The position numbers and the translations under genes are program-made. Of a stretch of 15,693 nt of DNA, positions 66-8,709 are shown in pieces (positions within the stretch are counted from its first letter, which is position 1; every line of letters starts with the position of its first letter). Origin of the DNA: Methanobacteriota archaeon (GTDB lineage Archaea; Thermoplasmatota; Poseidoniia; Poseidoniales; Thalassarchaeaceae); the NCBI GenBank assembly GCA_002697105.1, contig NZTS01000034.1, positions 10,402 to 26,094 of the forward strand, given 5' to 3'. Below the pieces are notes generated by a model. It did no database searches and had not been told where the DNA came from. It was given only the letters and a program-made list of their open reading frames with translations.

Positions 66-1466
66 ATGGTAGCCCCTAGAATCGTGGGAGAGGGACTTCG
101 TATAGATCCTTGGTCGTCTCAGCAGTCGACAGACTATTCTAGAATTCGTGATGAATTTGGATTAGGTTCGATTGAAGGAATGGCAATTCCTAATCCAAGT
201 ATGCTCCATCGTAGAGGTATAATTTTCGCTCAAAGAGATTTAGACGTAGTTTTAGATTCGTCAAGGCGAAGAGAGCCATTTGGAGTATTAACTGGCTTGA
301 TGCCATCTGGACGAATGCACTTGGGACATAGTATGGTAATCGAGCAAGTAAAATGGTTCCAAAGTCAAGGTGCAGACGTTACTATTGCAGTTGCAGACTT
401 GGAAGCTCATGCAACTAGGGGTATGTCATTAGATGATTGTAGAACTACCGCTTTGAAAGAATATGTTCTAAATTATGCTGCTCTTGGCCTTGAATCTGAT
501 TCTGCATCAGTGTATTTTCAGAGTCGTCGTCCTATAGTTCAACGAATTGGTTTCACTCTTGGCAAGAGAACTACTCTCTCTGAAATGGAATCTATTTATG
601 GATTTCAAGGTGAAACAAATTTGGCCCATATTCAAGCTCCATTGGTTCAAGTTGGTGACATCCTACATCCTCAATTTGAAGAATTTGGGGGAATACGCCC
701 GATTGTAGTACCTGTAGGCGTAGATCAAGATCCGCATATCAGATTGACACGTGATCTAGCGTCAAGGTCTAATTGGTTTAATGTTAAGCCTAGAAAAGCA
801 GGTGGTCTATCTATTGCATTATCTATACAAGAAGAAAATTCTTCTATATTCGGGGTTGGAGAAAGAGGAAGGGTAGATAGAGAAGTTCGGTCTCAAATTT
901 TCTCATCTATTCATGAATCTCTTTCTTCTTTCGGCTACTCAGACGTCATATCGAATCCGAAGCATGGATTAATTGAGATTCCTGGTGCGACAAATAAGGA
1001 TAGAGGGCAGATCCGCCTATCTTTGTTGCGTTTAGAAAGACATCTTGGCGGTTTAGGATTACTTCCTCCTGCTTCAACGTACCACAGATTTGCGATAGGG
1101 ATGACCGGAGATAAAATGTCTTCTAGTCGCCCTGAATCAACCATCTTTCTTGATGATTCCATAGAAGATATGGAGAAGAAAGTCAAGCGTGCATTAAGTG
1201 GAGGTCAAGCCACAGTTGAAGAACATCGTCGTTTGGGTGGTGATTGCGAGAAAGATGTCGCATTCCAATATCTTCACACATTCTTTGAATCTGATGACTC
1301 AGCATTAGAAGAGATTCGTAGAGAATATTCTTCTGGAAGAATGTTAGCGGCTGAAATTAAAAGAATTTGTATCGACAAGGCTACTGAATGGTTAGATAAT
1401 CTGGCTGAAAAAAGAAAATCAATAGAAGATCAGATTGATTTATTCCTTTCTGATGATGCTCGTTAA
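66..1466 (+). CDS. trpS: Tryptophanyl-tRNA synthetase (archaeal/eukaryal type)
   Basis: Class I aminoacyl-tRNA synthetase that charges tRNA-Trp in the cytoplasm. Counting from the ATG at 66, the HIGH-type signature is MHLGH at residues 84-88 and the KMSKS-type loop is KMSSS at about 350-354. VDQDPH at about 219-224 is typical of archaeal/eukaryal TrpRS. The N-terminal RIDPW...DYSRI..EFG block also fits that branch. I chose ATG 66 because a purine-rich GAGAGAAGG lies 12 nt upstream; an in-frame TTG at 6 would add 20 residues with no family resemblance. The protein is about 466 residues. Roughly 80 extra residues sit between the VDQDPH block and the LLPPASTYHRF block, which are much closer together in the compact archaeal enzymes I remember; some haloarchaeal enzymes also have an insert here. 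The stop shares its bases with the stop of the convergent ZPR1 gene. Identity is very secure; the start is less so. Confidence 0.93.
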   Translation: MVAPRIVGEGLRIDPWSSQQSTDYSRIRDEFGLGSIEGMAIPNPSMLHRRGIIFAQRDLDVVLDSSRRREPFGVLTGLMPSGRMHLGHSMVIEQVKWFQSQGADVTIAVADLEAHATRGMSLDDCRTTALKEYVLNYAALGLESDSASVYFQSRRPIVQRIGFTLGKRTTLSEMESIYGFQGETNLAHIQAPLVQVGDILHPQFEEFGGIRPIVVPVGVDQDPHIRLTRDLASRSNWFNVKPRKAGGLSIALSIQEENSSIFGVGERGRVDREVRSQIFSSIHESLSSFGYSDVISNPKHGLIEIPGATNKDRGQIRLSLLRLERHLGGLGLLPPASTYHRFAIGMTGDKMSSSRPESTIFLDDSIEDMEKKVKRALSGGQATVEEHRRLGGDCEKDVAFQYLHTFFESDDSALEEIRREYSSGRMLAAEIKRICIDKATEWLDNLAEKRKSIEDQIDLFLSDDAR

Positions 1467-2074
1467 TCAGAATCTACTTCCATTATGGGAATTTCTGGAC
1501 CAACTGCAAGTTGTCCAATTTCATCCTCTGATAGTGACCATTCTTCTGTTTCTGGATGTAAAATTCCACTATGGCCCATTGGATCTAGAATTACCAAGGT
1601 AAACTTAGTATCTTCTCCAGACAATGATGCTTCCAATGAATTAAGGAGGAAATCAATCCTTTCTTTTTCTTCTGGAGAATCCTTTGACTCGTCAAAAGAA
1701 CGATCTAGCATCTGAATTGTGTCTCGAAATCTAGTCAAAACACCTTCTATATTCGAGATATATCCAGAAGATGCAGTTCCCGGTTCAACTTCTAATCCAA
1801 GTTCGGGGATGCGAATAGTTCCATTAGATCCTCTAATTACTCGAGCATTCAACGTTTTAGCTCCAATAGAAATACGATTTCCAATAGATCCTTTCGATTC
1901 AGCAGGAATAAAATCAGTACGCCTCCATCCGCATGATTCACAGGCCAGAGTAATCTGAGTATGTTCTCCAAAATAAGGAATTTCATCAATATGGACAGTC
2001 ATTTTTAGACCATCATTAGAGGAACAAATTGGACAAGGTTGTTCGATAATACTGTCTATGGAATCACTCCCCAC
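1463..2074 (-). CDS. ZPR1-family zinc-finger protein
   Basis: Archaeal single-domain homologue of ZPR1, about 203 residues, the usual size for the archaeal form; eukaryotic ZPR1 has two such modules. The zinc finger is C14-x2-C17 and C45-x2-C48. Between them lies the family signature EIPYFGE at about 31-37, and CGWRRTDF follows. A beta-rich domain comes next and an acidic tail ends the protein. Eukaryotic ZPR1 acts as a chaperone for the translation factor eEF1A; the archaeal role is not settled. The start is a GTG that overlaps the end of the upstream sepF-like gene by 11 nt, so the two are probably translationally coupled. The alternative ATG at residue 25 would remove the first CxxC, so GTG is preferred. 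The 3' end overlaps trpS by 4 nt (TTAA). Confidence 0.85.
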   Translation of the reverse strand: MGSDSIDSIIEQPCPICSSNDGLKMTVHIDEIPYFGEHTQITLACESCGWRRTDFIPAESKGSIGNRISIGAKTLNARVIRGSNGTIRIPELGLEVEPGTASSGYISNIEGVLTRFRDTIQMLDRSFDESKDSPEEKERIDFLLNSLEASLSGEDTKFTLVILDPMGHSGILHPETEEWSLSEDEIGQLAVGPEIPIMEVDSD

Positions 2075-3293: not shown

Positions 3294-5219
3294 ATGAGAA
3301 TGACGTTGGCAGAGATCAAGAATAAGGCAAAGGACATAATTCCTGATGGGATTCCTTACACTGTAGATCTCGAAGCAGGAACAATTTCTATCATTACACC
3401 TACCCCTGATGCTTTCGCACAAGAAAGTAATTCATTGACAGTTAAATTAGCAAAGGCAGTTAGGCGAAGAATTGTAATTCGACCGGATCCATCGATACTT
3501 TCCACTGAAGAAGAAGTTTTAGAAACCGTCAGGGAGATAGTTCCTGAAGAATCTGGGATAACAAATATATGGTTGGATCCTGCTCTTGCAGAAGTTACTA
3601 TTGAATGCAACGATCCTGCTCAAGCAATAGGTCAAAAAGGTGCGAATTTAGTTGAATTAAGAAATAGTTTAGGTTGGTTATTCAGAGCAGATAGATCTCC
3701 AGCAATCGAATCTAAAACTCTCAATAACATTCGGAGATATAGAAAGGAAACTGCTGATGAGAGAAGAGAATTATTGCGCAAATTTGGTACTAGGATTTAC
3801 AGGCCTAAACGCTCAAGTACCCCATGGGTAAGATTGACTGCCTTAGGGTCGTATCGCGAAGTTGGTAGAGCGATGCATATGGTCACCACTAACGAAAGTA
3901 AGATTCTTGTGGATTGTGGGGCTAAACCTACTACTAATAGATCTGAAATTCAACCGTTTTTTGACGCACCTGAGTTACTTCCTCTTGAAAATATAGACGC
4001 AGTAGTAATCACCCACGCTCACGTTGATCATATTGGGATGTTACCTGTTCTTTTCCGTTATGGGTATCGTGGACCAGTATACTGTACTCCTCCTACGAGA
4101 GACTTAATGACACTACTTCAGCAAGATTACATAAAAGTAAGTAAGATGGAATCTGGTGACGGACCTCCGTATAGTTTGGCAGATATTGAGACCTGTATAA
4201 AACACGTAATCGATGTAGGTTATGGGCAGAAAATCGATATTTCTCCCGATATAAAAATGACAATGGAGAATGCAGGACATATTCTTGGTTCCTCATCTGT
4301 ATATCTTGAAATTGGAGAAGATAAAAATCTACATCGTCTATTATTTTCTGGGGATATCAAATATGAAAAATCATGGCTCTTTGATGCAGCGACAGTTCGA
4401 TTTCCACGAGTTGATTCATTAGTTATTGAATCTACATATGGCGGTCGTTCTTCTTTCCAACCTACTAGGCAGGAAGCAACCGAAGAACTACAAGATTTGA
4501 TTCGAAGAACTCTTGGTAAAGGTGGAAAAATTTTCTGTCCTGTCTTTGCAGTTGGCAGATCACAAGAGGTAATGGTAGCTATAGATCAGTTATTCAAATC
4601 GGAAGATTTCACCAGCGATCCATGTACTGTTTGGCTTGATGGGATGATTTCTGAAGCAACTGCAATTCATGCATCTCATCCAAATTTCCTTAATCGAGAT
4701 TTAAGACAACAAGTACTTCGTGGAGGAGAAGAAAATCCATTTAATTCTCCATGGTTCAAGACCGTCGATTCAAGACAGAGACGTGAACAGATAGTTTTAG
4801 ATCCATCTCCTTGTATCGTTCTCGCAACTAGTGGGATGATGACTGGTGGACCGATTTTACATTATTTACAGCATTGGGCGCCAAATGATAGAGCCACATT
4901 AGCATTTGTAGGTTATCAAGCATCAAATACTCTTGGTAGACGTCTTCAAGAAGGATATTCTGAGATTCAACTATCTAATGATGGACAAACATACACTGTT
5001 GATGTCAATTGTGATGTTGTGACAATTGATGGTTTTTCAGGTCATTCTGATAGACGTCAATTGCTTGATTATGTCAATGCATTGAATCCTAAGCCACGGC
5101 GAATAATATGTCATCATGGAGACGATACTGTTTGTAATGAATTTAGGAAAACATTGGGTGAGACATTCAAAGTTAGAGCCGCTGCTCCTCAAAATTTAGA
5201 GACTCTTAGATTACTATAG
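3294..5219 (+). CDS. fttA: FttA / aCPSF1: KH-metallo-beta-lactamase-beta-CASP termination ribonuclease
   Basis: Archaeal homologue of the cleavage and polyadenylation nuclease CPSF73. It cuts nascent RNA and, with Spt4-Spt5, terminates transcription by RNA polymerase. Domain order fits the family: N-terminal KH pair (about 1-145, with a GxxG loop GQKG at 113-116), a metallo-beta-lactamase domain from about 180, and a beta-CASP insert in the middle. The metal and catalytic residues are all present: HxHxDH at 241-246 (THAHVDH), H329 in AGH, D354 in SGD, motif A E379 (ESTYG), motif B H584 (FSGHSD) and motif C H608 (HHGD). The 641-residue length is normal. GGAGAG lies just before ATG 3294. The last codons and the TAG stop abut the stop of the convergent small membrane protein gene in a CTATAG palindrome. 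It should be active. Confidence 0.96.
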   Translation: MRMTLAEIKNKAKDIIPDGIPYTVDLEAGTISIITPTPDAFAQESNSLTVKLAKAVRRRIVIRPDPSILSTEEEVLETVREIVPEESGITNIWLDPALAEVTIECNDPAQAIGQKGANLVELRNSLGWLFRADRSPAIESKTLNNIRRYRKETADERRELLRKFGTRIYRPKRSSTPWVRLTALGSYREVGRAMHMVTTNESKILVDCGAKPTTNRSEIQPFFDAPELLPLENIDAVVITHAHVDHIGMLPVLFRYGYRGPVYCTPPTRDLMTLLQQDYIKVSKMESGDGPPYSLADIETCIKHVIDVGYGQKIDISPDIKMTMENAGHILGSSSVYLEIGEDKNLHRLLFSGDIKYEKSWLFDAATVRFPRVDSLVIESTYGGRSSFQPTRQEATEELQDLIRRTLGKGGKIFCPVFAVGRSQEVMVAIDQLFKSEDFTSDPCTVWLDGMISEATAIHASHPNFLNRDLRQQVLRGGEENPFNSPWFKTVDSRQRREQIVLDPSPCIVLATSGMMTGGPILHYLQHWAPNDRATLAFVGYQASNTLGRRLQEGYSEIQLSNDGQTYTVDVNCDVVTIDGFSGHSDRRQLLDYVNALNPKPRRIICHHGDDTVCNEFRKTLGETFKVRAAAPQNLETLRLL

Positions 5220-5507
5220 AGGAATATCCAATTCAAATTCTGAGGGATTAGGAAGAGAAGTGTATTCAGTTTCAGAATCGTCTTCAAATTCGTTCCAATC
5301 AGATTGCATCGATAATCGGTTCATTTCATAATTTTTAACACGATTCCAAATCAAAATTATTACAGTAGTTGACCAAAATAAACCCGCAAAGAGTAGTGAA
5401 TATGTTTCATTAATGTAATTCAGTGCACCCATTATTGCGAAAATCCATCCTGATGCGAATAGAAACGCAATGAACAGCCCCCTATCTATGTTGGAAATGG
5501 CCGCCAT
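5214..5507 (-). CDS. Small two-helix membrane protein, unknown function
   Basis: A 97-residue protein I do not recognise. Two hydrophobic segments at about 10-29 (LFIAFLFASGWIFAIMGALN) and 36-54 are joined by a short polar turn, giving a helical hairpin. A basic stretch (WNRVKNYEMNR) follows the second helix, so the acidic, Ser/Pro-rich tail (about 68-97) is probably cytoplasmic by the positive-inside rule, though that is inference. The ATG at 5507 is 51 bp from the divergent decarboxylase-like gene, and the stop abuts the fttA stop. Clean reading through the hydrophobic hairpin and the fit between neighbours argue that it is real. Confidence 0.6.
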   Translation of the reverse strand: MAAISNIDRGLFIAFLFASGWIFAIMGALNYINETYSLLFAGLFWSTTVIILIWNRVKNYEMNRLSMQSDWNEFEDDSETEYTSLPNPSEFELDIPL

Positions 5508-5558: not shown

Positions 5559-6200
5559 ATGGATTTCAGTATTGGAGGTTCAGAGCGTCGGACGAATACC
5601 CCTAATCAAACTCAAAATTCGGGACTTCCGTCTGGAGGATGGTTAATGACTGCAGTTGCCCCATGGGGCGAATCTGAAGAGGATGCCTTCGATCAATGTC
5701 TAGTGGAATTGGGTTTAGGAGATTGCCGCTTGGTTCAAGTTCAAGGTGCTATGTTGCCTATGGGTTTCTCCCCCGAAAGTCCACGTGCTCTTCCTATGGG
5801 TAGTTTAGTTGAATGTCATTATTCTGTTAGTTTAGCATGGAATGGATCTACAGCTTGTGCAGGAGCTGGATGGGCAAGGTGCACCACTCCAGAGGGTGAA
5901 GAGGTAGCAATCGTAACGACTGTTTCAACAAATGAGGATTATGAAGAAACTGAATTAATGTTGAAGAGACAGATGCAGCGCCGATTAGCGAGTAGAGATT
6001 TAGAGATAATCGAACATGAAATTGCAGTAGATGAGGTTACTTCTGGAGAAGGACATCATGGAGCAGTTATTGCTGCATTGATACTTCCTGAAAGTTTAGG
6101 AATAGGGGGCCCAGTAGGACGTGCTCGTGATTTTTCATCAATTTCAGGAGGAATACGTTCAGATTCTGGAAATCCTGGGGGCGGAAATTTCTCTTTTTAA
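5559..6200 (+). CDS. Degenerate pyruvoyl-dependent arginine decarboxylase homologue
   Basis: The fold matches pyruvoyl-dependent arginine decarboxylase (PvlArgDC), which makes agmatine for polyamine synthesis. GESEEDAFDQCLVELGLGD (37-55) and LPMGSLVECHY (78-88) line up with the M. jannaschii enzyme as I remember it, and IEHEIAVDEVTSGEGHHGAVIAALIL near the C-terminus fits its last helix and strand. The key residues are changed: the Ser52-Ser53 pair that self-cleaves to form the pyruvoyl group is Gln62-Gly63, Asn47 aligns with Arg57, and Glu109 aligns with Thr121. It should therefore neither process nor decarboxylate by the known chemistry. It also has about 25 extra polar N-terminal residues and a Gly/Ser-rich C-terminal tail (181-213). 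The frame is intact, so it looks like a maintained pseudoenzyme or a repurposed fold. The zinc-ribbon gene follows 37 nt downstream. ATG 5559 is chosen; Met30 is an alternative start. Confidence 0.75.
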   Translation: MDFSIGGSERRTNTPNQTQNSGLPSGGWLMTAVAPWGESEEDAFDQCLVELGLGDCRLVQVQGAMLPMGFSPESPRALPMGSLVECHYSVSLAWNGSTACAGAGWARCTTPEGEEVAIVTTVSTNEDYEETELMLKRQMQRRLASRDLEIIEHEIAVDEVTSGEGHHGAVIAALILPESLGIGGPVGRARDFSSISGGIRSDSGNPGGGNFSF

Positions 6201-6237: not shown

Positions 6238-6681
6238 ATGTCGGGGCCCACTTGGGTTATGTTACAATGTAGTTCTTGTGATAGATTTAGTGGAGCTCGT
6301 AAGGGACAGAAATCAATGATTTGTAGCCATTGTGGCGACAGAGAGAGGTTATCTGTAATTCAAGAATTTTCTAACTCATCATCATTGTCTCAAGCGATTT
6401 CATTAGAGAATACTCCCCCCGAAATTCGAAAAGAATTGGAGAAAGCATTGAGTCGAAAATCAAATCAAATATCATCCCCTGAGGCTACAGATCCTGTTTC
6501 TATGATTCAATCATTTACAAGTGATGAAGGGATAATTGATGTGGATGGAATCATAACTGAATTGATAACCTCTGGATTATCAGAAAATGATAGTAATGCA
6601 CAGGTTACTGAATGGGTGCAACAATCAGAAATCGAGGGCATGGTCATCAGATTACCTACTGGTGAATTGAAACTTCTTTAG
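6238..6681 (+). CDS. Zinc-ribbon protein with a winged-helix-like C-terminus
   Basis: A 147-residue protein with a zinc ribbon at C11-x2-C14 and C29-x2-C32, resembling the N-terminus of haloarchaeal DUF5817-type proteins (short ribbon followed by a charged helix). A Ser-rich linker (about 74-86) leads to a compact C-terminal unit at 98-147 (IIDVDGIITELI...EGMVIRLPTGELKLL). That pattern recalls the winged helices at the ends of archaeal MCM and RPA-type proteins, where a helix pair is followed by a wing ending in a PxGxxKL strand. A nucleic-acid-binding or regulatory role is inferred, not shown. It lies between the decarboxylase-like gene and tRNA-Pro, same strand. No strong ribosome binding site precedes the ATG. 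Confidence 0.7.
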   Translation: MSGPTWVMLQCSSCDRFSGARKGQKSMICSHCGDRERLSVIQEFSNSSSLSQAISLENTPPEIRKELEKALSRKSNQISSPEATDPVSMIQSFTSDEGIIDVDGIITELITSGLSENDSNAQVTEWVQQSEIEGMVIRLPTGELKLL

Positions 6682-6718: not shown

Positions 6719-6796
6719 GGGTCCGTGGGTTAGCTTGGCCTATACTTGATGGTTTGGGACCATTAGACCCCAGTTCAAATCTGGGCGGACCCACCA
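6719..6796 (+). tRNA. tRNA-Pro (anticodon UGG)
   Basis: Full cloverleaf with the CCA encoded. Acceptor arms GGGTCCG (6719-6725) and CGGACCC (6786-6792) pair perfectly, followed by discriminator A6793 and CCA. The D-arm contains the TTAGCTTGGCC loop typical of archaeal tRNA-Pro. The anticodon stem is GATGG/CCATT with loop TTTGGGA (6753-6759), putting TGG at 34-36 and G at 37. The variable loop is AGAC. The T arm is CCCAG-TTCAAAT-CTGGG. No intron. The 3' end is only 15 nt from the stop of the convergent ribA. Confidence 0.96.
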
Positions 6797-7431: not shown

Positions 7432-7665
7432 TTATCCCACCGAATTCTTTATTCTGAAAGTGAATTCACCTGCATTTTCAGTTACTGATTCTAGTGTAAT
7501 ATTCAATCTTGCTACCAAGGCAGGTATGTCGTGTAATGTTTCTGGGTCATCTGAAACTACTTCTAAGATTTCTGCATCTCTCATTTCCTTAAGTGCCTTA
7601 CGAGCTTCATGTACTGGAACGGGGCAATAGAACCCAAGAACATCCACACGACGCACGTTAGGCAT
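7432..7665 (-). CDS. TusA/SirA-family sulfur-carrier protein
   Basis: A 77-residue single-domain protein with the TusA signature LGFYCPVPVHEARKAL; Cys14 of the CPxP motif is the persulfide-carrying residue. The following EILEVVSDDPETLHDIPALVARL block matches the second helix region of the family. Members pass sulfur in tRNA thiolation, molybdenum cofactor synthesis or sulfur metabolism; which of these applies cannot be read here. Normal length and motif intact. It is the first gene of a two-gene unit with ribA (2-nt gap) and diverges from the archaeosortase gene. The pairing with ribA has no obvious biochemical reason. Confidence 0.88.
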   Translation of the reverse strand: MPNVRRVDVLGFYCPVPVHEARKALKEMRDAEILEVVSDDPETLHDIPALVARLNITLESVTENAGEFTFRIKNSVG

Positions 7666-7716
7666 GTGTTACCGTGTAGTCTCCTATTCTTCAATCGTTC
7701 ACTTTTCATGTTTGTA

Positions 7717-7734
7717 TTGACCTCATCGGGTCAA
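7717..7734. repeat. Short inverted repeat in the tusA/archaeosortase divergent region
   Basis: TTGACC-TCATCG-GGTCAA is a perfect 6-bp inverted repeat with a 6-nt spacer, near the middle of the 99-bp gap between the tusA-like start (7665) and ATG 7765. It is operator-like in spacing. A 6-bp repeat is not rare by chance, and if translation began at the alternative ATG 7708 it would lie inside the coding region. Confidence 0.3.
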
Positions 7735-7764
7735 ATTCAAACCGTCTACGTAGGATGTAGGGGC

Positions 7765-8709
7765 ATGGGGGAGTCATCTGGCAAGGTCTCCGATGATATC
7801 CCGTTTCCAGAATTTGTACGAATGTTGGGCTCAGTGTTTGTACTAATAGCAGTTCTATTATTTGGAGAAATTTTGTTTAGGTGGTTTATTGAGCCAGCTA
7901 ATACTCTACTTCCGCTACAACTTATTGAGGCGTGGTTATGGAGCAATATTTCTAATTTAATTTGGGCAGGGTCAGCAGAATTAGTTGCCCATCAGACTGG
8001 TCCTATGACCCAAGTAAACCTCTTGCATCCTACTTTTTATGGCGGCGTCGTTCCGCTTTATGTTTCAGATGAATGTACTGGCTTACATGAATTATTCTTT
8101 CTTGGAATGATGATGTTATTGACTCCATGTTTTGATTTAAAGACTAAATTCAAGCATCTTGGCATTGCATCTTTGATAGTGTTCATACTTAATCTAGTTC
8201 GTCTTGTTGTTCTTTATCCATTAGCCGTTAATGGATGTGAGGGGATGAACGGAGGAATTTTTGGTTGTGAATCTCCATTGTTTGAATTTCATGAATTTGT
8301 TCTTAGATATGGATCACTAATCGTTTTAGTTATTGGTTGGACAATCTGGTTTAATATTACAGATGCTAGAAAAGGAGTACGGGAATTCTGGAATCGTCTT
8401 CCCAATTTACAAGGTGTCTCTTTTAATCCTAGTTTAGATGATCTCAATTCGAATACTGTAAGAGCAGCAGGCGTGTATTTTTCAATAGGGTTGGCAATTC
8501 TGTCTGTCATTTCATATTTTTCAAAGGTTCTAGGTGATACTTCATCAGTGGATGCGTGTGCAAATACTATTTCGGCATCTTGTACTAGAATAGTTACAGA
8601 GTATGAAGATTCTTTAGGAGTAAGTATCCGACTGTTTTTGATTAGTTTAACAATCTTGATGTTTGCATGGATACAACCAGGATTAAATTGGTTAGATGAA
8701 GAAGAATAG
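7765..8709 (+). CDS. Archaeosortase/exosortase-family transpeptidase
   Basis: Multi-pass membrane cysteine transpeptidase of the EpsH-like family, which cleaves C-terminal sorting signals of surface proteins and in archaea attaches them to lipid. The three catalytic residues are visible in order: Cys104 in ECTGLHELFF, Arg146 in NLVRLVVL, and His176 in EFHEFVLRYG, each at the edge of a hydrophobic helix. About seven hydrophobic segments are present. The Arg-His loop carries two extra cysteines (CEGMNGGIFGC), and the segment before the last helix carries two more (VDACANTISASC), suggesting disulfides on the outer face. I chose ATG 7765; ATG 7708 or 7609 would extend it, the latter into the tusA-like gene. 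The stop at 8709 touches the helicase stop. No sorting-signal substrate is encoded here. Confidence 0.85.
   Translation: MGESSGKVSDDIPFPEFVRMLGSVFVLIAVLLFGEILFRWFIEPANTLLPLQLIEAWLWSNISNLIWAGSAELVAHQTGPMTQVNLLHPTFYGGVVPLYVSDECTGLHELFFLGMMMLLTPCFDLKTKFKHLGIASLIVFILNLVRLVVLYPLAVNGCEGMNGGIFGCESPLFEFHEFVLRYGSLIVLVIGWTIWFNITDARKGVREFWNRLPNLQGVSFNPSLDDLNSNTVRAAGVYFSIGLAILSVISYFSKVLGDTSSVDACANTISASCTRIVTEYEDSLGVSIRLFLISLTILMFAWIQPGLNWLDEEE

Follow-up and report, generated by a model that had tools for sequence, protein, structure and literature searches.

A conserved protein of the pyruvoyl-dependent arginine decarboxylase fold in Poseidoniales that lacks the self-cleavage serines and is encoded beside a zinc-ribbon protein

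The window analysed here is a 15,693-nucleotide stretch from an archaeon of the order Poseidoniales (Marine Group II). It contains an open frame, PVL, related to pyruvoyl-dependent arginine decarboxylase (PvlArgDC), and directly downstream of it the gene for a zinc-ribbon protein, ZnR. A preliminary description, made from the letters alone, had read PVL as a PvlArgDC scaffold that lost residues needed for processing and catalysis while its frame stayed intact. The frame is indeed open throughout. The features discussed below are as follows, with canonical residues numbered as in the M. jannaschii enzyme.

5559..6200, + strand: PVL, a 213-residue PvlArgDC-fold protein without a pyruvoyl-forming serine
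5559..5630, + strand: N-terminal tail of PVL (residues 1-24), variable and predicted to be disordered
5631..6089, + strand: PvlArgDC-like core of PVL (residues 25-177), from alignment, hhalign and AlphaFold2
5691..5693, + strand: Asp45, matching Asp35 of M. jannaschii and present wherever a homologue is readable there
5727..5729, + strand: Arg57 replacing Asn47 (phmmer, homologue ORFs, MAFFT)
5742..5750, + strand: Gln62-Gly63-Ala64 replacing the self-cleaving Ser52-Ser53 (phmmer, MAFFT, hmmsearch, hhalign)
5919..5921, + strand: Thr121, most likely replacing Glu109 (MAFFT, hmmsearch, model; Asn125 is the hhalign alternative)
6090..6197, + strand: C-terminal tail of PVL (residues 178-213), with a conserved end of the [DN]-F-[ST]-[LF] type
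6238..6681, + strand: ZnR, a zinc-ribbon protein with an MCM-like winged-helix C-terminus, the likely partner of PVL

A tRNA-Pro gene (TGG; 6719-6796, + strand) lies directly 3' of the PVL-ZnR pair. The protein encoded at 1463-2074 (- strand) contains a jelly-roll domain of the ZPR1 type (PF22794, 70.9 bits) along with a ZPR1 zinc finger that stays below threshold, and that encoded at 7609-8709 (+ strand) has extended hydrophobic segments and matched nothing in Pfam at E 0.01. A small membrane protein adjoining PVL (5214-5507, - strand) ends in an acidic tail of the D-x-P-[LIVM] type. Such tails, with endings like DIPL, DIPIM, DIPIL, DTPIL and DLPVL, also occur at the loci L175-L177, L180, L183, L184, L186 and L188; the tail looks like a docking motif.

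PVL matched PF01862, the PvlArgDC family, over residues 37-176 (E 1.5e-8), its 35.1 bits exceeding the gathering score of 22.7, while it missed the cut-off of the NCBIfam equivalog TIGR00286 (25.3 against 106.95 bits). A phmmer search of PDB sequences placed the M. jannaschii PvlArgDC entries 1n2m and 2qqd on top (E 0.003-0.005), followed by two unrelated chains (E 0.024 and 0.58); with a profile of the PVL family, hmmsearch returned 1n2m and 2qqd alone (E 6e-6 and 2e-5). Judging by the aligned letters, 1n2m carries the S53A mutation and 2qqd carries N47A. When the PVL family was aligned by hhalign with 15 canonical short-type PvlArgDC proteins of other Thermoplasmatota, the probability was 98.4% (E 4e-15), with 27% identity over 131 columns. 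A search of canonical long-type loci with the PVL family model gave nothing convincing; the homology is argued from PF01862, from 1n2m and 2qqd, and from the short type. As far as sequence comparison can place it, PVL is confirmed as a PvlArgDC-fold protein, in agreement with the preliminary description.

An AlphaFold2 model of PVL built from 58 family members had a mean pLDDT of 77.8. The core (about 25-177) was predicted confidently, with blocks of ten residues mostly at pLDDT 87-97 from residue 31 and a lower value of 79 for the loop 61-70. Residues 1-23 and 193-213 were predicted to be disordered (pLDDT <50). Added tails at both ends, as first proposed, are present; the extreme C-terminus is conserved as [DN]-F-[ST]-[LF] in most homologues. 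Likeness to PvlArgDC (PF01862; 1mt1, 1n2m, 2qqd) extends beyond core homology to the AFD helix, the LPMG strand, an R-x-x-E motif and the Asp35 equivalent, and the predicted strands and helices of PVL follow in a plausible order, judged by their succession in the model. PVL differs in its missing Ser-Ser pair, Asn47 and, most likely, Glu109, in its score below the TIGR00286 cut-off, in one extra residue in the cleavage loop, and in the added tails.

Every alignment of PVL with PvlArgDC placed Gln62 opposite Ser52 and Arg57 opposite Asn47. The pairing of Ser53 varied. It fell on Gly63 in the ungapped phmmer alignment, and the hmmsearch alignment with 2qqd was likewise ungapped at this site, but the MAFFT joint alignment, hmmsearch against 1n2m and hhalign all paired Ser53 with Ala64 and treated Gly63 as an inserted residue. 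The serine loss claimed at the outset therefore stands, while the reading of Ser-Ser as Gln62-Gly63 does not quite hold; going by the alignments, the change would be better stated as Ser-Ser to X-Gly-Ala (62-64), one residue longer than the canonical site. Across 84 distinct homologous ORFs, Gly63 and Ala64 were invariant (84/84 each) and position 62 was Q in 42, K in 22, E in 14, H in 5 and R in 1, so that X-G-A, rather than Q-G, is the conserved form. Positions 58-70 had a constant length in all 84 and contained no Ser, Thr or Cys in any of them. A pyruvoyl group therefore cannot form there, and it is nearly certain, on sequence grounds, that PVL forms none.

The replacement of Asn47 was borne out too. 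Arg57 was found in 83 of the 84 distinct ORFs, the remaining one having an unreadable X, and in 79/79 PVL rows of the joint alignment (rows containing X dropped), against Asn in 15/15 canonical proteins. Glu109, which according to PMC2720952 helps cleavage, was paired with Thr121 by MAFFT and hmmsearch, as the preliminary description had it, and this position is T, K or S across the PVL family. Thr121 lies on a predicted strand (115-124), and the distance from it to a common Arg is 25 ungapped residues, equal in the PVL and canonical families. The hhalign alignment instead paired Glu109 with Asn125, a position that is Glu in 60 of the 84 relatives. Thr121 is most likely the equivalent. The 15 canonical short-type relatives that were read all keep both Ser-Ser and the Glu. 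Asp45, the equivalent of Asp35, was present in 79/79 PVL rows of the joint alignment; in the M. jannaschii enzyme Asp35 presumably takes part in agmatine binding, contacting the guanidinium group.

The family profile matched 141 of 243 Poseidoniales genomes, spread over 15 of 22 genera; many of these genomes are incomplete and some matches are fragments. The 98 loci compared (L001 being the window's own) reduce to the 84 distinct ORFs because L001-L018 and L019-L098 share source genomes. Of 155 PVL relatives among genome contigs 80 were kept, and their record titles name Euryarchaeota, Poseidoniales, Thermoplasmata and kin, except for one contig labelled Rhodobiaceae (L045), which was taken for misbinned. 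The profile was searched within the order Poseidoniales and in viral contigs. A viral origin of PVL was rejected, with no sequence relative in viral contigs and no BFVD fold match at E <= 0.001. No paper on the family was recognised in open-licence PubMed Central.

Whether a second, canonical copy exists had been raised as a check. PF01862 gave none in the 243 Poseidoniales genomes, many of them incomplete (6 matches, best 39.4 bits), and none in 148 genomes of the family (18 matches, best 42.1 bits). Phylum-wide, 193 of 292 genomes matched, with scores from 222.6 down to 131.8 bits among the matches listed. For weak PF01862 copies these tallies are lower bounds; the phylum-wide and 243-genome searches missed the window's own PVL, which the 148-genome search picked up. 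In the sister group (family f3 of the same class) three of the six genomes were read, and these have a long-type PvlArgDC with Ser-Ser.

PVL is under strong constraint. Its dN/dS was 0.03 against its two closest relatives. Proteasome beta gave 0.008-0.009, aCPSF1 0.016 (one relative), ZnR 0.18-0.20 and the small membrane protein 0.21-0.27; values for distant pairs were saturated or undefined and were left out. Dozens of columns are invariant across 58 aligned PVL proteins, and the window's protein shares 55-60% identity with the more distant members of its alignment. In a tree of 46 proteins, the 20 PVL sequences were separated from all others by a 100/100 branch whose stem measures 5.4 changes per site, which we read as one large change followed by conservation. 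This midpoint-rooted tree did not nest PVL inside short-type PvlArgDC; a short-type origin is argued from the common neighbour and from the canonical proteins that PVL resembles.

These observations largely refute decay to a pseudogene for the window and most relatives, and we give that reading next to no weight: PVL is absent from several genera and an in-frame stop inside the match was noted in G087 and G262 among 141 PVL-bearing genomes, but the low dN/dS, the 84 distinct open frames and the invariant columns oppose it. The two single-stop matches (G087:C212:20845-21378, locus L195, and G262:C352:13790-14410, locus L194) reflect either decay or sequencing error. Interrupted matches in G162 and G471 are no proof of decay, because those stretches hold unread bases.

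Users of agmatine are retained in Poseidoniales, TiaS in 43 and the deoxyhypusine synthase (DHS) family in all of 48 genomes. Deletion of PvlArgDC makes Haloferax an agmatine auxotroph (PMC5178350). The PLP-dependent arginine/ornithine decarboxylase family PF02784, the one PLP family covered, was found in 0/48 genomes. A SpeD homologue (PF02675) was found in 44/48. Li et al. 2023 (PMC10407285) describe two SpeD homologues, from a Poseidoniales archaeon and from marine group II/III, that decarboxylate arginine, whose genes adjoin speB and speY, and which are slow (SpeDA kcat/Km 180 and 64 per M per s).

In the window's genome a SpeD homologue lies on a different contig from PVL, flanked by arginase-family (PF00491, 158.5 bits) and DHS-like (125.5 bits) genes. 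It thus keeps the gene company described for SpeDA, and we infer that it too is an arginine decarboxylase. SpeDA has the activity that PVL lost, although its family (PF02675) is unrelated to that of PVL and it sits at another locus. It seems that a SpeD-type enzyme replaced PvlArgDC in making agmatine. The presence of SpeD was rejected as a marker exclusive to displacement, since homologues occur in 166 of 292 genomes across Thermoplasmatota, including many with PvlArgDC (0/6 in f3), and most listed Poseidoniales genomes without PVL retain one too. The homologues in relatives that keep PvlArgDC are perhaps AdoMet decarboxylases. Because SpeD is common alongside canonical PvlArgDC, the displacement claim is based on the assays of Li et al. 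together with the gene cluster. Most of the 48 genomes have two DHS family members, a strong one (about 260-315 bits) and a divergent one (about 123-152 bits), and the divergent member adjoins SpeD where read. AdoMet_dc (SpeD-type) and DHS-like (SpeY-type) matches fall within single frames in G208:C115 (16915-18141), G243:C19 (39510-40742) and G246:C139 (3678-5003), open for 446, 441 and 501 aa respectively; SpeD and SpeY are probably fused in some genera of the order.

ZnR, which the preliminary description had named as a possible partner, was found directly 3' of PVL in 97 of 98 loci, with 26-112 bases between the end of the PVL frame and the first zinc-binding Cys; the exception, L040, has little sequence after the PVL frame. 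The neighbour comparison used the window's own genes as its only queries. ZnR was the sole co-oriented neighbour retained throughout, while the aCPSF1, proteasome beta, sepF-like and ZPR1-like genes vary, and the pair stayed intact both where it was inverted relative to the aCPSF1, proteasome and sepF-like genes and where these were not upstream.

The pairing extends to canonical enzymes. A ZnR homologue lay directly downstream of a Ser-Ser PvlArgDC in 10/15 short-type and 0/33 long-type loci, as scanned in the flanking sequence retrieved, with a model from Poseidoniales ZnRs alone. Among the matches listed, 19 of 25 genomes had one within 20 bases and on the same strand as a short-type PvlArgDC, in a search with model A3, which itself contains nine of those 19. 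This short-type pair with its zinc-ribbon (DUF5817-like) protein resembles the PVL locus in order, strand, close spacing and the homology of ZnR, and differs in that its decarboxylase retains Ser-Ser and Glu. The presence of ZnR homologues beside canonical PvlArgDC indicates that the two genes were probably paired before catalysis was lost.

The A3 profile, which includes those homologues, matched the C-terminal domain of archaeal MCM (2m45, E 1.7e-5). The N-terminus of the window's ZnR resembles DUF5817 but misses the PF19134 cut-off (17.9 against 31 bits), which two of six homologues next to canonical PvlArgDC pass (33.7 and 31.6 bits). A further Cys (CxxCxxC) at position 17 is found in at least 90% of 33 aligned ZnRs, and the window's ZnR is without it. 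The first knuckle is CxxC in 84 of 85 distinct ORFs downstream of PVL, the 85th being in the wrong frame, and in 9/10 ZnRs beside canonical PvlArgDC, compared with CxC in 14/14 at loci without PVL (L175-L188, e.g. L176:2031-2465). This contrast fits a physical PVL-ZnR partnership, though it may be a single inherited change.

All 14 of the PVL-less Poseidoniales loci have ZnR, with aCPSF1 near it in 13 (L185 meets its contig end) and a small membrane-protein frame listed in 10. A search for a hidden PVL remnant in these loci (HMM, filters off) gave a best E of 1.3; 12 of the 14 genomes are among the listed PVL-less genomes, G057 and G137 not being among those listed. ZnR was present in 48/48 Poseidoniales genomes sampled (as fragments in G041 and G270). 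It occurs in genera without PVL, and so PVL is not required for ZnR to exist. The corresponding identity in the ZnR alignment was 19-32%, against 55-60% for PVL. Since PVL is the better conserved of the two, its main constraint may lie elsewhere. On the synteny, PVL probably works with ZnR.

Our best explanation, held tentatively as a whole, is that PVL is a displaced enzyme turned non-catalytic, ligand-binding partner of ZnR. It would descend from a PvlArgDC, most likely a short-type one like that of M. jannaschii. A SpeD-derived arginine decarboxylase would have assumed agmatine synthesis in the common ancestor of the order, arginine decarboxylation being shown for the two published homologues and probable for the copy in this genome. 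Afterwards the self-cleavage serines and the catalytic glutamate of the old enzyme would have disappeared, its sequence changing along a single long branch until it apparently became fixed as a protein without the pyruvoyl cofactor. It may have been retained because it was already working with ZnR. PVL would remain an oligomer whose former substrate pocket, with the Asp35 equivalent, might accommodate a small ligand, for example arginine or agmatine; the ligand state together with the conserved C-terminal tail might control the action of ZnR on nucleic acid. Small-molecule sensing by the former substrate pocket is the best single mechanism we can offer, though less likely than not. The specific proposal that PVL after the SpeD takeover became a sensor of arginine, agmatine or another small molecule controlling a ZnR regulator is about as uncertain, and the conservation of Asp45 could be structural rather than ligand-related. 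The proposal of a repurposed fold in the preliminary description is supported; of the two forms that it gave, a regulatory pseudoenzyme or a new activity, either may apply.

That PVL is conserved above ZnR makes a new activity of its own a serious rival, though we regard it as rather improbable: PVL would be an enzyme with a pyruvoyl-free activity, its pocket rebuilt around new invariant polar residues. In the 58 aligned proteins D42, D55, R57, E85, H87, T110, E112 and D147 are invariant and new relative to the canonical enzymes, and C86, D45, R146 and E149 are invariant and common to both, which together with the very low dN/dS would suit such an enzyme. However, ZnR is the one co-oriented neighbour kept throughout, several Poseidoniales genera are without PVL, and no enzyme of the PvlArgDC fold is known to work without pyruvoyl.

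An unlikely alternative is a purely structural oligomeric scaffold that gathers ZnR and other proteins and involves neither ligand nor chemistry. The predicted disordered tails with their conserved end, the fixed pairing and the CxxC knuckle beside PVL would be consistent with it, but the knuckle change may be one inherited event, the knuckle beside canonical PvlArgDC being CxxC in 9/10, and the former active-site loop is invariant (G63, A64, L66, P67) beyond what a scaffold needs.

In trypanosomes an inactive subunit, the AdoMetDC prozyme, activates a catalytic decarboxylase, and this is likewise a dead pyruvoyl-decarboxylase homologue under selection. A prozyme role for PVL is very unlikely. 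Agmatine is presumably still needed, given TiaS and the DHS family, and the SpeDA enzymes described in PMC10407285 are slow; however, the trypanosome prozyme works with an active paralogue, whereas no canonical partner was found in the 243 genomes (many incomplete), and SpeD is of another family, on another contig, and retained in most listed genomes without PVL. Continued arginine decarboxylation through an unusual cofactor or hidden processing is scarcely credible: the fold and the Asp35 equivalent are kept, but positions 58-70 offer no Ser, Thr or Cys in 84 ORFs, Asn47 has been lost, as most likely has Glu109, and TIGR00286 is missed widely (25.3 against 107 bits). AaxB of Chlamydia trachomatis, as portrayed in PMC2720952, is also a PvlArgDC with lost activity, but there the losses are strain-level missense and nonsense pseudogenes, whereas PVL is an ancient conserved family.

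PVL looks like an enzyme whose place was taken by an unrelated one and which, having lost the residues that make its cofactor, was then kept fixed by selection across a widespread order of marine archaea. Annotation based on PF01862 would label it an arginine decarboxylase, and polyamine metabolism would be misassigned in these genomes. That many canonical relatives carry a homologous ZnR points to an unstudied PvlArgDC partner in archaea with an active enzyme, where the pair is open to direct test. If the sensor reading is true, PVL and ZnR would represent a new type of archaeal ligand-responsive regulator, derived from an enzyme and its pre-existing partner.
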